A DNA stretch of 20,204 bases from a virus. The position numbers were made by a program, and so were the translations under genes. Below are positions 12,355 through 20,204 of this stretch, piece by piece. The DNA is taken from positions 1-20,204 of IMG/VR virus record IMGVR_UViG_3300035157_000682. One strand, written 5' to 3'. The notes under the pieces are model-generated. The model was not told the DNA's origin, searched no databases, and saw nothing but the letters and a program-made list of their open reading frames with translations. Each line of letters opens with the position of its first letter. Positions within the stretch are counted from its first letter, which is position 1.

Positions 12355-12687
12355 CGCTTCATCTTTTGAAGCTATTTCCTTTGCTTTCTTATTGCTGTAG
12401 TATGCGATAGCAAGCACAGATAGGTACATGAGTGTATCATCTAGCATCACAAGGAAGAAGATAATAGACCCACCTATCCTAATCCAATCAGGTATAACAT
12501 GCGAGAATCCTTCTCCAAACTTACGAAAGAGTCTTTCAAACCTAAAGTACAGAAGGATGAAAGCAGTGACTACAAACTCACTGTATGGTACAACAAAGTA
12601 TAAAGAAAGAAAGATAAAGAGAGGCCAATAATGCCTCTCAGGTATCTTATTAACTAATGTTAGGTACTTCCGTATCAGTTTTTTCAT
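12340..12687 (-). CDS. Small integral membrane protein of unknown function
   Basis: A protein of 115 residues with a basic N-terminus (MKKLIRKYL) and about four hydrophobic segments: two closely spaced within residues 21-50 (LFIFLSLYFVV, FVVTAFILLYF) and two within 72-97 (GGSIIFFLVML, LMYLSVLAIAYY). A basic loop (FERLFRKFGEG) lies between the pairs, and the tail is charged. The ATG lies 38 bases inside the end of the preceding small gene. Size and topology would allow a holin- or antiholin-like role, but no family motif is visible and lysis genes are not apparent nearby, so this is only a possibility. Confidence 0.75.
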   Translation of the reverse strand: MKKLIRKYLTLVNKIPERHYWPLFIFLSLYFVVPYSEFVVTAFILLYFRFERLFRKFGEGFSHVIPDWIRIGGSIIFFLVMLDDTLMYLSVLAIAYYSNKKAKEIASKDEALQDK

Positions 12688-12835
12688 CTAAGATCTCAGG
12701 ATATATTCTCTTATCATCAGACTCATAAGGTGGTTGGATTGCAACCACAAATGTACTAAAGTCTGGTGGGTCTGTGCCCTTAATAGCAGCAGTACCAGTA
12801 GCCACCAAACCCACAGAGAGTGTTGAGGCAATCAT
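12650..12835 (-). CDS. Small hydrophobic protein downstream of the structured RNA
   Basis: A protein of 61 residues from the ATG at 12835. The N-terminus (IASTLSVGLVATGTAAIKG) resembles a membrane anchor or uncleaved signal. The remainder is polar, Pro- and Asp-rich (GTDPPDFSTF, YESDDKRIYPEILDEKTD). The reading frame stays open upstream, but extending it far would run through the RNA fold at 12895-13011. A GTG at 12874 would add 13 residues (FIYKLLELAEAT follows the GTG), with native-looking codons. No good Shine-Dalgarno decides between the starts. It is the first gene after the structured RNA and may be controlled by it. The function is not recognised. Confidence 0.55.
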   Translation of the reverse strand: MIASTLSVGLVATGTAAIKGTDPPDFSTFVVAIQPPYESDDKRIYPEILDEKTDTEVPNIS

Positions 12836-12894
12836 TGTTGCTTCAGCCAACTCTAAAAGCTTGTAAATGAACACGGGTCTGTATAATAAAGGAG

Positions 12895-13011
12895 TGTTGA
12901 GAGAGTGGGGCATCATGACGGGTTTCACCCGAATGCCCAAATTTACCCTATGGGAATCGCTTACACCTGAACCCCCAGAACTGGGGCATAGGAACCACAT
13001 ATCCCTCAACA
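12895..13011 (-). ncRNA. Candidate structured RNA (sRNA or cis-regulatory leader)
   Basis: On the minus strand this region folds by eye into a three-way junction. P1: TGTTGAGGGA (13011-13002) pairs with TCTCTCAACA (12904-12895), with one G-T wobble. It continues after a TAT bulge as GTGG (12998-12995) with CCAC (12908-12905). P2: CCTATG (12992-12987) pairs with CATAGG (12952-12947) and contains a nested hairpin CCCCA-GTTC-TGGGG (12986-12973). P3: GGGCAT (12938-12933) pairs with ATGCCC (12913-12908), with an inner helix CGGGT-GAA-ACCCG (12931-12919). P1 and P3 would share one C at 12908. A sigma70-like promoter at 13017-13046 predicts a start near 13010, at the base of P1. It is not a tRNA. 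I recognise no family; it lies about 60 bases upstream of a small ORF, so leader and independent sRNA are both open. Confidence 0.6.
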
Positions 13012-13016
13012 AATAT

Positions 13017-13046
13017 AGTATAACACATAGATGGGCACTGTGTCCA
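13017..13046 (-). promoter_or_regulatory. Sigma70-type promoter for the structured RNA
   Basis: On the minus strand, TGGACA (13046-13041, five of six to TTGACA) is followed by an 18-base spacer and TATACT (13022-13017, five of six to TATAAT). The predicted start falls near 13010, where the first RNA helix begins. A small inverted repeat GGCAC/GTGCC (13056-13052 with 13038-13034) brackets the -35 box and could be an operator or chance. Confidence 0.6.
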
Positions 13047-13059
13047 TCCATGTGCCACT

Positions 13060-13245
13060 TCAATAATCGTCCTCTTGCATCTCAATAAACTCTTTGTTCT
13101 GCCTACAGATACCATGTACATCAATCTCTTGATGTAAGTGAGCAGAGGTGTGAAGACCCTCTATCAGTAATAGTACTGCTAGTAGCATCACTGGGGTGAA
13201 CCATAGCGGATTACCTATAACTTCACCTGCTGTTTCTTTTCTCAT
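13060..13245 (-). CDS. Small single-pass membrane protein
   Basis: A protein of 61 residues with one hydrophobic segment (WFTPVMLLAVLLLIEGL, residues 15-31) followed by a His-containing stretch (HTSAHLHQE) and an acidic tail (EMQEDDY). The ATG overlaps the stop of the bilin reductase gene as ATGA, indicating translational coupling at the end of the metabolic operon. No family is recognised. Confidence 0.65.
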   Translation of the reverse strand: MRKETAGEVIGNPLWFTPVMLLAVLLLIEGLHTSAHLHQEIDVHGICRQNKEFIEMQEDDY

Positions 13246-13868
13246 TCTGCGTAAGGGAAAAAGAACTCATCCATCATACGATTAGCATTCTCTTTACCAA
13301 AATGACCACTAAGGTATCCTAATATAGGATCTAATCTCTTCATGTATGAATCAAAATCTTTATACTGTGTGGTGTCCTCACCAGTGGGTTGTGCCTTGTC
13401 TATCATCTCTCTATAGAGGGTCAGATAGTACCTGAATGTTGGTAAATATGTATCAACCTCATCCATGTTACAATATCGCACAAAAATATTCTCCGAGAAG
13501 TGGTTACCCATCTCGAAGAATCTATAAGTCTTATCTGCTTTAGGTAGAGGGTGTACGTTTAGTACATAGTTCTCTACTGGATGTTGAAAATCGAATACTA
13601 TGATAACTTTCTTGTGAAAGAACCCCATGAGATCCATCCCAAAACAAGGAAGGTTATGTCCTGTCTTAGGATACATTACATTGTTATAGATATCAGTCTT
13701 ATCACTCCTAATATCCACCTGTCTAGACTTAATAAAATGTGGTGCAGTATAATTATCTGCCGTCATGTTCAGATCATCTTTATTGCACCAGTTACACCAC
13801 CGAGATTCAAACTTGAACTCAGGGAATATATCATCCAGCGTTTTCTTGTAATTCTTCCACAGATTCAT
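13242..13868 (-). CDS. pebS: Ferredoxin-dependent bilin reductase, PebS-like
   Basis: A protein of 208 residues of the FDBR family, which reduces biliverdin with electrons from ferredoxin to make phycobilins. The family core VMYPKTGHNLPCFGMDL (64-80) is followed by VIIVFDFQHPVENYVLNV and GNHFSENIFVRY, and a C-terminal MKRLDPILGYL (176-186). The catalytic Asp pair of PebS (D105, D206) corresponds to D79 and D180, with identical spacing of 101 residues. The site that is His88 in PcyA is Asn62 here, as in PebS-type enzymes, so phycoerythrobilin synthesis is favoured over PcyA activity. PebA or PcyX activity is not excluded. The ATG at 13868 is chosen because MNLWKNYKKTLDDIFPEF aligns with the family N-terminus. 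It overlaps the preceding gene by 38 bases. No heme oxygenase gene is visible in the window. Confidence 0.85.
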   Translation of the reverse strand: MNLWKNYKKTLDDIFPEFKFESRWCNWCNKDDLNMTADNYTAPHFIKSRQVDIRSDKTDIYNNVMYPKTGHNLPCFGMDLMGFFHKKVIIVFDFQHPVENYVLNVHPLPKADKTYRFFEMGNHFSENIFVRYCNMDEVDTYLPTFRYYLTLYREMIDKAQPTGEDTTQYKDFDSYMKRLDPILGYLSGHFGKENANRMMDEFFFPYAE

Positions 13869-14037
13869 TATATTTATCCCAAGGATGTATGTACTGAGAG
13901 CTCCCAACAGCATCTTGAGGGACAGCAGCAACAGCACGACCACTAGGTAGTCTGATTAGAAACTGTTCTCCCTTTTCGATTTTTGTTAAGTACTCTTCGT
14001 ATCCGTTTTCAAATTCTTCATGCGTAATTTCAATCAT
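13831..14037 (-). CDS. Small Phd/YefM antitoxin-like protein
   Basis: A protein of 68 residues starting MIEITHEEF. The ATG at 14037 overlaps the glutaredoxin stop as ATGA; a longer reading would need a TTG start. Residues 1-40 follow the pattern of Phd/YefM antitoxin N-terminal domains: an initial strand, a helix (FENGYEEYLTKIEKGE), then the strands FLIRLPSGRAVAAVP. The C-terminal part (SSQYIHPWDKYNESVEEL) is short and unassigned. In the family the N-terminal fold binds operator DNA and the tail neutralises a toxin. No toxin gene is adjacent, so it may be a regulator, an anti-defence factor neutralising a host toxin, or only structurally similar. The assignment is from pattern, not a search. 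Confidence 0.65.
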   Translation of the reverse strand: MIEITHEEFENGYEEYLTKIEKGEQFLIRLPSGRAVAAVPQDAVGSSQYIHPWDKYNESVEELQENAG

Positions 14038-14306: not shown

Positions 14307-14978
14307 TTACGGACTATTTAGTATAGCTTGACCTTCAATTGAAGCAGCATAGTCCTTATCAAAGATGTCCAACCCCTTATCCGTAAGGATATGATTGTAC
14401 ATTCCTTCAAAGACTTTCACTGGTATAGTACAGATATCAGCACCATATTCAAATGCTCTACCTACATCTCTCACACCTCTAATAGATGCGGCTAATATTT
14501 GTGTAGAATCCCATGATTGCTTCTCAAATACGTTAGCAATGTCCTTAATAAGACACAATCCACCGAATGAATTATCATCAACACGACCTACAAATGGTGA
14601 GACGTATGTTGCACCTGCTTTAGCAGCAAGAATTGCCTGTGATGGTGAGAATATAAGGGTAACATTGACTCTTATATTATTCTCAGAAAGTTCCTTGCAA
14701 GCAAGCAATCCATCAACTGTACATGGTACTTTAATAGTAGCACATTTAGGGAATTTCTTTGCTAGTCTCTTACCCTCAGAGATCATGTTCTCTTTGCTAC
14801 CAATGACCTCCATACTGATGTCTGTAACACCAATCTCTTTGATCTCTTGATAGACTTCTTCGTGGTTTCTACCACTCTTTCTGATTAATGATGGGTTAGT
14901 AGTCAACCCATCAATCAAACCAGTCTTAAAATGTTTACGGACTTCATCCGTTATTGCTGTATCTAAAAATAATTTCAT
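14307..14978 (-). CDS. talC: Transaldolase, TalC/fructose-6-phosphate aldolase type
   Basis: A protein of 223 residues, the compact TalC type of cyanophages, clearly shorter than the cyanobacterial TalB enzyme. Landmarks are FLDTAITDEV (4-13), DGLTTNPSLI (23-32), the Schiff-base lysine in ATIKVPCTVDG (K83), VNVTLIFSPSQA (104-115) and YVSPFVGRVDD (125-135). It transfers a dihydroxyacetone unit between sugar phosphates. In infected cyanobacteria phage TalC is thought to push carbon from the Calvin cycle to the pentose phosphate pathway, raising NADPH and ribose for nucleotides. It sits between an unknown gene (6-base gap) and glutaredoxin (15-base gap) in the metabolic operon. Confidence 0.95.
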   Translation of the reverse strand: MKLFLDTAITDEVRKHFKTGLIDGLTTNPSLIRKSGRNHEEVYQEIKEIGVTDISMEVIGSKENMISEGKRLAKKFPKCATIKVPCTVDGLLACKELSENNIRVNVTLIFSPSQAILAAKAGATYVSPFVGRVDDNSFGGLCLIKDIANVFEKQSWDSTQILAASIRGVRDVGRAFEYGADICTIPVKVFEGMYNHILTDKGLDIFDKDYAASIEGQAILNSP

Positions 14979-15292: not shown

Positions 15293-15308
15293 AATAACTA
15301 TTGTTATT
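15293..15308 (-). other. Small AT-rich inverted repeat after petE
   Basis: AATAAC and GTTATT flank a 4-base loop, overlapping the petE stop codon and lying just upstream of the next ribosome binding site. It is weak and has no T-run, so it is not a terminator; it could tune mRNA stability or translation, or be chance. Confidence 0.25.
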
Positions 15309-15627
15309 TAACGTGAACTACACCCTTCATACCAGCTCCTGCATGGGGATCACACTGAAAGTTATAATCTCCTGACTCAGGAAAGGTAATATCAAAGCTA
15401 TCACCAACGGCAAATGCTAGATCTCCATGTGATAATTCTGGGTGGTCTTCTACCATCACATTATGGGGTGGTAATGCTCCATTAGTAAAGGTAATTGTTT
15501 CACCAGCATTAATTGTAATATCATTTGGTTCAAAGACTAAGTTGCCTCCCGAACCCATTTGTACTTCAACTGCCCATACAGGTAGGGCAAAGAAAAATGC
15601 TAAGATTGCTGTAAATAAGTACTTCAT
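15304..15627 (-). CDS. petE: Plastocyanin
   Basis: A protein of 107 residues with a signal peptide (MKYLFTAILAFFFALPVWA, cleavage likely after A19), which sends it to the thylakoid lumen or periplasm. The mature part is about 88 residues, slightly shorter than cyanobacterial plastocyanins. All four copper ligands are visible: H55 in LPPHNVMV, and C92, H95 and M100 in QCDPHAGAGM, with the family spacing. It carries electrons from cytochrome b6f to photosystem I or a terminal oxidase. Phage copies are thought to sustain photosynthetic or alternative electron flow during infection. The start overlaps the previous stop as ATGA. Confidence 0.96.
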   Translation of the reverse strand: MKYLFTAILAFFFALPVWAVEVQMGSGGNLVFEPNDITINAGETITFTNGALPPHNVMVEDHPELSHGDLAFAVGDSFDITFPESGDYNFQCDPHAGAGMKGVVHVK

Positions 15628-17925: not shown

Positions 17926-18232
17926 AATAATTTTCCCACGGATCGGGTATTAAATTCCTTGGTCTTTGTTCCTCTGGAAGAACTCCTTCAGGCTCGACTG
18001 GCAGTTGGGAGGTTCTGGGTCTTTGATACCTTTCTTCCTCTTCCAGTCGTTGTGCATCGCTTGCATCAACCAACTCTGAGATAGACTCTTCGGTCCATTC
18101 ATCAGCAATTCTCTGTTGAGTTTGCCGTGAACTTTCATACCGAGGTACTCTTCTCTCCACGACTCGTCTCGTGGTTCTAGTTCGGTATCTTGGGTCATAA
18201 TTTAAAACCAGCGAAAGTATCTTTCTTAACAT
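17894..18232 (-). CDS. Arg/Glu-rich unknown protein overlapping nrdB
   Basis: A protein of 112 residues with no recognised domain. The N-terminal half is basic (RYRTRTTRRVVERRVPRYES), the middle acidic (WTEESISELVDASD) and the C-terminal part Pro/Glu-rich (QRPRTSQLPVEPEGVLPEE). The ATG at 18232 lies 38 bases inside the end of nrdB, and the 3' end overlaps the methyltransferase by 32 bases. The alternative frame 18198-17950 (82 residues) has an ATGA overlap with nrdB. However, its third codon positions are much richer in G and C than those of neighbouring genes, while this frame keeps the AT-rich third positions of the phage. I therefore prefer this one, with moderate certainty. Confidence 0.6.
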   Translation of the reverse strand: MLRKILSLVLNYDPRYRTRTTRRVVERRVPRYESSRQTQQRIADEWTEESISELVDASDAQRLEEEERYQRPRTSQLPVEPEGVLPEEQRPRNLIPDPWENYYDDQIEKREG

Positions 18233-19325
18233 CTTGTTTAATACTACCTATCATGTAGCTCTCAACCTCTGTTTCTTGTGGTGCTACTTGTAATCCTTTA
18301 GAGGATAACCAGTGTGCAGTCCAAGGTAGTGGATTATTGGCTAGCGGTGTATCGTATATAGGTTTCAATCCCATCGATTTTAACCTACGGTTAGCAGTCC
18401 ATTCAACATACTTCTGTAATAATACATCATTAAGTCCAATTATGCTACCATCCTTAAACAAATACTCTGCCCACTCCTTTTCTTCTTGAACACACTCCCT
18501 AAACATTTGGTAAACATTCTCTTCTTCTTCCTTAGCAATCTCTACCATGTCTGGATCGTCACCTTCATTCCATTTGTTTAGTATATTGTTCGTGACTCCC
18601 ATGTGTTGTGACTCATCACGAGCAATAAGGGAGATAATCTTTGCTGATCCTTCGAGTAACTTGAGCTCGCCAAAGGCAAAGCTGCAAGCGAAAGAGACAT
18701 AAAAGCGAATACCTTCAAGAATGTATACATTAGCAACTGCTCTATAAAGTTTACGTTTAAGATCCTTCAGTGTCCATTCAGCATTAACATGATCTCTCCA
18801 TCCATCTTTCCACAGATTACTTTGACCATATTCCTGTGCATAATTGATGAAATCATCATATGCTTTAGTAACTGACTGAGCACGTGCAAGTATCTTATCA
18901 TCATCAAGAATAGTATCAAAGACCTCTGATGGATCAGGGTATACATTCTTAATGATATGAGTATAAGACCTACTATGAATCATCTCCATAGTCTGCCAAA
19001 TATTCATACATCCTTCAAGCTCAGGTAGTGAACAGTAAGGAGCAAAAGCCATACCAGGAGCACGACCTTGTACAGAATCTAAGAGAATCTGGTACTTAAG
19101 ATTGCTAGTAAAGATATGTTTCTGTGCTGCATTCAACGTCTGATAGTCTGCTCTGTCTTTCTGTAAAGATACCTCTTCAGGTCTCCAGAAAAATCCTAAT
19201 TGTGTCTGTGTTAGCTTATCGAAGATAGGATATTTAAACTTATCATATCTTTGTACTCCTAAAGGAGGACCAAAGAACATCTGTCCTTTGGTAGTATCAA
19301 CTTTCTTCGTATTGAAGACGGTCAT
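18195..19325 (-). CDS. nrdB: Ribonucleoside-diphosphate reductase class Ia, small (R2) subunit
   Basis: A protein of 376 residues from the ATG at 19325 (MTVFNTKKVDTTKGQ), 13 bases after the nrdA stop; a longer reading would need a TTG inside nrdA. All di-iron ligands of E. coli NrdB are present: D83 (YQILLDSVQGR), E114 and H117 (WQTMEMIHSRSY), E204 (ILEGIRFYVSF), E238 and H241 (ARDESQHM). The radical tyrosine is Y121 in SRSYTHI. The C-terminal ESYMIGS stretch carries the tyrosine used for radical transfer to NrdA. It houses the tyrosyl radical needed for deoxynucleotide synthesis. It shares an operon with nrdA. Confidence 0.97.
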   Translation of the reverse strand: MTVFNTKKVDTTKGQMFFGPPLGVQRYDKFKYPIFDKLTQTQLGFFWRPEEVSLQKDRADYQTLNAAQKHIFTSNLKYQILLDSVQGRAPGMAFAPYCSLPELEGCMNIWQTMEMIHSRSYTHIIKNVYPDPSEVFDTILDDDKILARAQSVTKAYDDFINYAQEYGQSNLWKDGWRDHVNAEWTLKDLKRKLYRAVANVYILEGIRFYVSFACSFAFGELKLLEGSAKIISLIARDESQHMGVTNNILNKWNEGDDPDMVEIAKEEEENVYQMFRECVQEEKEWAEYLFKDGSIIGLNDVLLQKYVEWTANRRLKSMGLKPIYDTPLANNPLPWTAHWLSSKGLQVAPQETEVESYMIGSIKQDVKKDTFAGFKL

Positions 19326-19338
19326 ACCACTGATTCCA

Positions 19339-20204
19339 TCAGATTTTGCAGCTATCACAGTCTTCCTCCTCGGTAGCAAATATATCTTCTAGAAGATTTT
19401 GAACTGATTCTTTATTTGAATCTAGATCAACCTCATCTGTCTTACTATCATATGTATTCTGATAATAAGATGTCTTCCAACCATACTTGTAAGTGGTTAA
19501 TAAATCTTGAGCCATCACTGAAGTAGGAACCTCATTGTTCTCAAATTGTTGTGGATTATAACTCCAGTTACCACTGATTGCTTGGTCAAAGAACTTCTGC
19601 ATCACTGCTACTATATTAACATAACCAGCATTAGAAGGCATATCCCAAAGGAGCGTGTAATTATTCTTAAGGGTGGCAATGTTAGGTACGATCTGTTTAA
19701 GTGGTCCCTTCTTAGACTTCTTCGTTGAGATATAATCTCTGGGTGGTTCAATACCATTTGTAGCATTAGAGACAACCGATGAGGACTCTGAAGGCATCTG
19801 TGCCGATAGAGTGCTATGTCTGAGTCCGTGAATTCTGATAGACTCTCTAAGTTCTTCCCAGTCATAGTTAAGTTTGTTGGGTACAATTTCATCTACATCT
19901 TTCTTGTAAGTATCAATGGGTAAGAATCCATCGAAGTACTTTGTTTGACTGAATCCATCACAAGATCCTTTCTCTTCAGCAATCTTATTAGATGCTTTGA
20001 GTAGATTGTATTGGAATGCTTCAGTCAAGTCATGAACTAACTTCCATGCTTCTGGATCTTCATACTTAACACCATTCTTAGCAAGATAATGTGCTAAACC
20101 AATGTATCCTATACCAAGAGAACGTCTAGCAAGGGTGCTTTTACGTGCTGCTTCTACTGGATACTTCTGATAATCAATCAACTCTTCTAGAGCTCGTACA
20201 GATA
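19339..20204 (-). CDS. nrdA: Ribonucleoside-diphosphate reductase class Ia, large (R1) subunit, 5' part beyond the window
   Basis: The last 288 codons of nrdA; the frame is open to the window edge (SVRALEELIDYQKYP at its start), so the N-terminal two thirds, including the central radical cysteine, are outside. Recognisable are RRSLGIGYIGLAHYL, the conserved SAQMPSESSS and NATNGIEPPRD segments of the substrate region, and the tyrosine pair in TSYYQNTY for radical transfer. The C-terminal redox pair CDSC (EEEDCDSCKI) accepts electrons from glutaredoxin or thioredoxin. The glutaredoxin at 14034-14291 is the likely donor. Confidence 0.95.
   Translation of the reverse strand, partial: SVRALEELIDYQKYPVEAARKSTLARRSLGIGYIGLAHYLAKNGVKYEDPEAWKLVHDLTEAFQYNLLKASNKIAEEKGSCDGFSQTKYFDGFLPIDTYKKDVDEIVPNKLNYDWEELRESIRIHGLRHSTLSAQMPSESSSVVSNATNGIEPPRDYISTKKSKKGPLKQIVPNIATLKNNYTLLWDMPSNAGYVNIVAVMQKFFDQAISGNWSYNPQQFENNEVPTSVMAQDLLTTYKYGWKTSYYQNTYDSKTDEVDLDSNKESVQNLLEDIFATEEEDCDSCKI

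Follow-up and report, generated by a model that had tools for sequence, protein, structure and literature searches.

The minus strand of a viral sequence, from position 13010 to 12897, encodes an RNA of about 115 nt in its short form that, judged by comparison with its homologues, folds around a three-way junction and is structured by selection acting on that fold. The sequence is IMG/VR record IMGVR_UViG_3300035157_000682, whose 20,204 bases constitute the whole stretch of DNA analysed here (the window), and a bilin reductase gene together with nucleotide matches to cyanophage records places it with the T4-like cyanophages. The RNA is flanked by genes of 61 aa and 74 aa. A preliminary description of the window had called this locus a promoter-driven, multi-helix structured RNA of an unrecognised family, and this is upheld by covariation, by a 5' end common to promoter and fold, and by the lack of an Rfam match. 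The novelty lies in the family and architecture of the RNA; phage small RNAs and structured leaders as such were known before. As to its role, we infer, with slightly better than even confidence, that it is an autonomous phage RNA with its own promoter and one conserved partner, rather than a dedicated switch for the next gene.

A consensus from 30 aligned short-form copies comprises helices P1, P1b, P2, P2a, P2b, P3 and P3b, and a covariance model (R1) built from 30 sequences, the window copy among them, matches the window at 13016-12897 with 131.5 bits (E 5e-41). The features of the element, all on the minus strand, are listed below.

13024 to 13056, minus strand: hairpin upstream of the -10 box, holding the GTGGCACA box and TGGACA; resembles a terminator/promoter cassette, from its sequence
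13017 to 13022, minus strand: predicted -10 box TATACT, extended by an upstream TG (TGTTATACT); position kept in homologues
12897 to 13010, minus strand: structured RNA, predicted transcription start to P1 3' strand, by covariance model R1 and covariation
13002 to 13011, minus strand: P1 5' strand TGTTGAGGGA, pairing with 12904-12895 (10 pairs); helix 1 compensated at 8 of 8 pairs in homologues
12996 to 12998, minus strand: P1b 5' strand GTG, past a TAT bulge, pairing with CAC at 12907-12905
12987 to 12992, minus strand: P2 5' strand CCTATG; all 6 P2 pairs compensated
12973 to 12986, minus strand: P2a, the exchangeable arm, in the window in its short form CCCCA-GTTC-TGGGG; inserts vary in homologues
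12953 to 12972, minus strand: invariant core GTTCAGGTGTAAGCGATTCC, with hairpin P2b (GGTGT/ATTCC)
12947 to 12952, minus strand: P2 3' strand CATAGG
12939 to 12946, minus strand: nearly invariant junction strand GTAAATTT, G(G/T)TAAATTT in homologues, from invariant alignment columns
12908 to 12938, minus strand: P3 (GGGCAT/ATGCCC), its inner helix CGGGT/ACCCG and the loop GUGAAAC; both P3 and P3b show compensatory changes
12905 to 12907, minus strand: P1b 3' strand CAC, pairing with GTG at 12996-12998
12895 to 12904, minus strand: P1 3' strand TCTCTCAACA, pairing with 13011-13002

The 10 pairs of P1, P2, the nested CCCCA/TGGGG hairpin and P3 with its inner helix had all been proposed at these places, and P2 correctly so, although the minimum-energy fold of the single sequence misses it. 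Past the TAT bulge a helix of four pairs had been drawn; the helix (P1b) is real, with GTG/CAC swapping with ACG/CGT in homologues, but three pairs are supported and C12908 is part of P3. A proposed loop contact between TTCA and TGAA is refuted, since 45 distinct copies have TACA, TGCA or TTTA in place of TTCA, yet the UGAAA of the P3 loop is unchanged in all 149 distinct parsed copies.

The folding energy of the single sequence is ordinary (z -1.05 and -1.07 relative to shuffled sequences), and because this energy is unremarkable and the minimum-energy fold lacks P2, the case for structure rests on the relatives. Among the 30 short-form copies 98.2% of cells are paired and double changes occur in 18 of 35 pairs, a result that none of 500 shuffles equalled; with the partners slid, pairing in the same alignment falls below 60%. 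When the set is widened to 62 distinct copies, including the variant set, 24 of the 35 pairs show compensatory double changes, and the share of paired cells is 96.5%, where slid controls reach 52% at most. All six P2 pairs covary in these 62 copies, the first flipping from C-G to G-C. Since fitting an alignment to a model biases it in the model's favour, P2 was also parsed independently as plain text: its arms are fully complementary in 138 of 180 copies, against a mean of 38 and a maximum of 55 after shuffling. Paired columns contain 183 G-U or U-G combinations and only 27 A-C or C-A, and the functional strand is therefore the window's minus strand. Compensatory change in homologues, the check suggested in the preliminary description, is thus amply present. 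P2b and the loop-adjacent pairs do not vary; no compensatory variants were found in homologues for the two P2b pairs tested, so that this hairpin is conserved but unproven.

The TATACT box was found where it had been reported, with the first base of the long helix, 13010, six nt after it. The TG that precedes it makes this an extended -10 promoter with no conserved -35; TGGACA, put forward earlier as a -35 box, is not conserved, and the extended -10 is what homologues keep. Of the 46 copies of the GTTGAG type, 44 (counted from a printed list) have a -10 hexamer that precedes the first P1 base by exactly 6 nt, although the sequences upstream differ. An automated parse of 129 contexts, which extends P1 outward where pairing permits, places a -10 at 5-6 nt in 57 and at any other spacing in at most three. 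As the -10 of promoter-proximal copies almost always lies 5-6 nt before P1, the RNA should start there, and it is strongly suggested that transcription begins at the first P1 base in these copies, at 13010 in the window. The agreement of promoter and fold on one 5' end, remarked on before in the window, holds across many unrelated upstream sequences. A predicted promoter at the 5' end of the fold is found in copies of the GTTGAG and GTCAGG types, and a third group of copies has another RNA module in front.

Two further sequence blocks were noted upstream of the RNA. A box AACTG(G/T)CACA (13059-13050 in the window) directly follows the ends of genes and precedes the -10 by about 38 nt, usually with a hairpin between; present at loci L012, L061, L095, L106 and many others, it has the appearance of a recurring promoter-terminator-like cassette of these phages. 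A second block, GGGGGGACGCNTAAAGTGTNNNTATA, precedes GTGTGAGGG at 22 loci (L021, L094 and L121 among them) after varied upstream genes, and is perhaps another promoter class.

A distant blastn search of 50,697 phage records detected the element only in P-SSM2, P-SSM5 and four AG-345 single-virus genomes, and in P-SSM2 and P-SSM5 no gene is annotated at its site. The invariant 20-mer core has at least 120 exact matches in IMG/VR, and a variant of the core differing by one base adds 66 further stretches. A search of 84,980 prokaryote species gave a single occurrence of the 20-mer, in Siphonobacter (L130), without flanking structure; this match was rejected as a homologue, only the 20-base word being common and the rest of the structure missing. 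The RNA thus appears so far to be confined to phages.

The P2a arm is where the family diversifies. Its homologues carry 91 distinct inserts of 13-230 nt, of which 53 are attached via CC(C)GAA...AGUAGG(G), which by its sequence has the signature of a loop-E/bulged-G motif, and we read the GAA/AGUA junction as loop-E-like; another 24 are attached via CCCCAAACC...GGUGG(G)G, and 11 are short hairpins. Several inserts are also found on one side or the other of the RNA, and there are leaders that chain many modules. A near-invariant core combined with an arm that is swapped among phages suggests that the partner is fixed and the outer surface variable. It is tempting, if tentative, to regard the RNA as a plug-in class of autonomous phage RNA, in which a docking arm on a near-invariant core takes unrelated modules. 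Cyanophages would then build such RNAs by combining modules, which might serve to bind a host factor or to evade one. Exchange and nesting of whole RNA domains as modules would give RNA a new route of evolution through recombination.

Other arrangements of modules were seen. At locus L063 (4930-5100) the whole three-way junction sits in another hairpin module (GGCA...TAAGTCC), an RNA module within an RNA module, and a neighbouring intergenic gap of P-SSM2 (NC_006883, 55814-56117; L150) holds several such modules without the RNA. Further uncatalogued, structured-looking modules, such as GTGGTATGACTTAGTACC...GGTGAAGCACCTCTTGAGCATACCAC, are present at L005 (6125-6220), L007, L012 and L054; one module among these loci, TTCATGCCCTGTTGGTACAATC...GTGGTTCAATTCCAC, is T-arm-like and is not called by ARAGORN.

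Searched with the 4227 models of Rfam (wcaG, manA, PhotoRC and glnA included) at gathering thresholds, the window and 18 homologous loci gave no match, and at E values up to 10 chance matches only; ARAGORN found no tRNA or tmRNA. The RNA is unrecognised by Rfam as anticipated, and wcaG, manA and PhotoRC, which had been suggested as relatives, are excluded as the same family by the lack of a cmscan match. No description of the RNA was found in the literature, uncurated candidate lists in supplements aside. wcaG, manA and PhotoRC-II (RF01761, RF01745, RF01717) are known from marine metagenomes and T4-like cyanophages, where they lie in potential 5' untranslated regions and are of largely unknown function (PMC2864571). 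They resemble the new RNA in being structured RNAs of T4-like cyanophages; unlike it, they precede functionally related genes.

The reading as an autonomous RNA is preferred because of single copy number, changing neighbours, and promoters or a terminator that separate the RNA from the next gene. One copy is present in 52 of 53 distinct phage records searched whole with the model, including the complete P-SSM2 and P-SSM5 (in record W02 the single copy shows as two partial matches); contig G038 has two copies flanking a gene. Genes that start no more than 36 nt from P1 form 27 groups by blastp, for which about 20 is a fair count because some are dubious short open reading frames (ORFs); they include helicase-like, DUF6267 and DUF7717 proteins as well as numerous tiny orphans. 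In about 20 copies the RNA is separated from the gene by a new promoter (L152, L158, L190, L201 and L208; L185, L200, L206 and L211; L008, L102 and L113), and at L209 a terminator-like hairpin and T-run follow the RNA. A link to the MATRSRIG-type gene, its neighbour in P-SSM2, was considered and rejected, being found at only 33 of 127 loci. P1 followed by a U-run was likewise dismissed as a general terminator: some copies have it (P-SSM2), and it is missing where further modules directly adjoin.

In promoter-proximal copies it is strongly suggested that a host-type RNA polymerase starts the RNA from the extended -10 at the first P1 base, so that the 5' end is held in a helix. Under the autonomous reading the invariant unpaired blocks (GGUU, GUNCAGGUGUAAGCGAUUCC, GUAAAUUU and GUGAAAC) would make up a single face to which one conserved partner binds. 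This partner is probably a protein of host or phage, for which RNA polymerase, the ribosome and an RNase are candidates, and P2a would point away from the face and tolerate replacement. Where a copy is fused to the gene after it, it would travel as a passenger in the leader of that gene. The earlier suggestion of a free phage small RNA suits some of the copies well; others are fused to the leader of the next gene.

Several observations weigh against autonomy. The start site is read from sequence; the 22 copies of the GTGTGAG type have no -10, and a block GGGGGGACGCNTAAAGTGT is conserved there instead. Some 30-60 copies, depending on the parse, have a start codon at most 36 nt on with neither promoter nor terminator between, such that the RNA would be part of an mRNA leader, and in another 47 contexts further structured modules precede the gene. 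A trans-acting RNA would need no place on the coding strand beside a start codon. Two of the supporting numbers also have limits: the invariance of the core is partly selected for, because copies were gathered by its exact sequence, and, because most records are fragments, the number of copies per genome is a minimum everywhere but in P-SSM2 and P-SSM5.

These points lend themselves to a serious though less probable explanation, in which the RNA is a generic cis-acting 5' leader that caps the next mRNA, whatever it encodes, and protects it against RNase E/J, promotes its translation or acts on RNA polymerase in the manner of an antiterminator. The predicted start at the first P1 base suits such a cap, as does an empty gap of about 20-30 nt between P1 and the start codon of many unrelated genes in fused copies, and at the loci inspected the RNA is on the same strand as its neighbour genes. 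In Prochlorococcus MED4 a functional isoform of the host RNase E is induced on infection by cyanophage (PMC9692554), which would give protection a plausible purpose without being evidence for it. Against this, a generic leader should occur in many copies per genome and not about one, roughly 20 copies are parted from their gene by a promoter or terminator, and a mere stabiliser needs no near-invariant 20-nt core.

The preliminary description had also offered a riboswitch-like leader, and a metabolite riboswitch controlling the next gene would be in keeping with a three-way junction bearing large invariant unpaired blocks, with the leader position, and with the riboswitch-like RNAs wcaG, manA and glnA of cyanophages (PMC2864571, PMC9964418). 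We consider it improbable: the genes that follow are unrelated, so that no functional association is conserved, genomes hold about one copy, some copies are followed by a new promoter, and in directly fused copies the gap from P1 to the start codon leaves little room for an expression platform.

A DNA-level linker for gene shuffling, whose fold would be a by-product or an aid to recombination, is about equally improbable. Promoter early stem-loop (PeSL) cassettes drive gene shuffling in T4-like phages, according to work cited in PMC4503421, and the likeness is plain: promoter and stem-loop lie between unrelated genes in shuffled neighbourhoods, the units upstream of the RNA resemble PeSLs as that source presents them, and pieces recur in varied combinations and nestings. 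PeSLs consist of an early promoter and a terminator hairpin only and are repeated within a genome; here such a cassette lies upstream, and a covarying three-way junction, in about a single copy per genome, is additional to it and extends downstream from the start site. Moreover, recombination needs sequence identity, which compensatory change destroys, and the excess of G-U over A-C together with pair-by-pair compensation speaks for selection on an RNA fold and not on DNA identity. Chance structure or coding sequence, for which the ordinary folding energy and a long minus-strand ORF crossing the region in the window might be cited, is contradicted so clearly by the covariation counts, by arm lengths that differ by up to about 200 nt and by frames closed in nearly all copies (7 open among three frames in each of 129), which also answers the earlier concern over codon structure, that it is scarcely credible.

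Outside cyanophages, the packaging RNA (pRNA) of phi29 is likewise encoded by a phage, has paired ends and a three-way junction, and is similar in size. P2a of the new RNA is freely replaceable, a difference from pRNA, and we know of no use of a pRNA by T4-like phages. Flaviviral exoribonuclease-resistant RNAs and the bacterial put and EAR antiterminators are compact folds with invariant unpaired bases that act whatever gene follows; the new RNA is like them by description of the fold, with no Rfam match. GOLLD, ROOL and OLE are giant modular RNAs of elaborate architecture, some of them in phages, whereas the new RNA is far smaller and grows by interchangeable modules at one arm.

To our knowledge, only a handful of structured RNAs have been described from the abundant T4-like cyanophages. 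The present one combines strong covariation with presence in well over 100 marine viral contigs and in the cultured phage P-SSM2, and is testable in an existing infection system.

Some minor observations concern the genes around the RNA. Locus L025 (contig IMGVR_UViG_3300006332_000008) has two RNA copies about 0.9 kb apart around one MGTRSRIG-type gene. At L152, L158, L185, L200 and L206 the RNA stands before a DUF6267 gene (phrog_455) that has its own promoter, and the N-terminus of this gene's product contains VSVKYDGAPAIVYG, reminiscent of the KxDG motif of nucleotidyltransferases. In the window itself, the small gene 3' of the RNA was recognised as an ORF:

12650 to 12874, minus strand: 74-aa gene with a GTG start

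Its GTG lies 20 nt past P1 with neither promoter nor terminator in the gap, and start and spacing are the same in relatives; its C-terminal 67 aa had no match in Pfam or PHROG. The auxiliary genes of the window, at 13242-13943, 14307-14978, 15304-15627 and 18195-19379, are the bilin reductase (Pfam Fe_bilin_red) and, by eye, a transaldolase, a plastocyanin and the small subunit of a ribonucleotide reductase.
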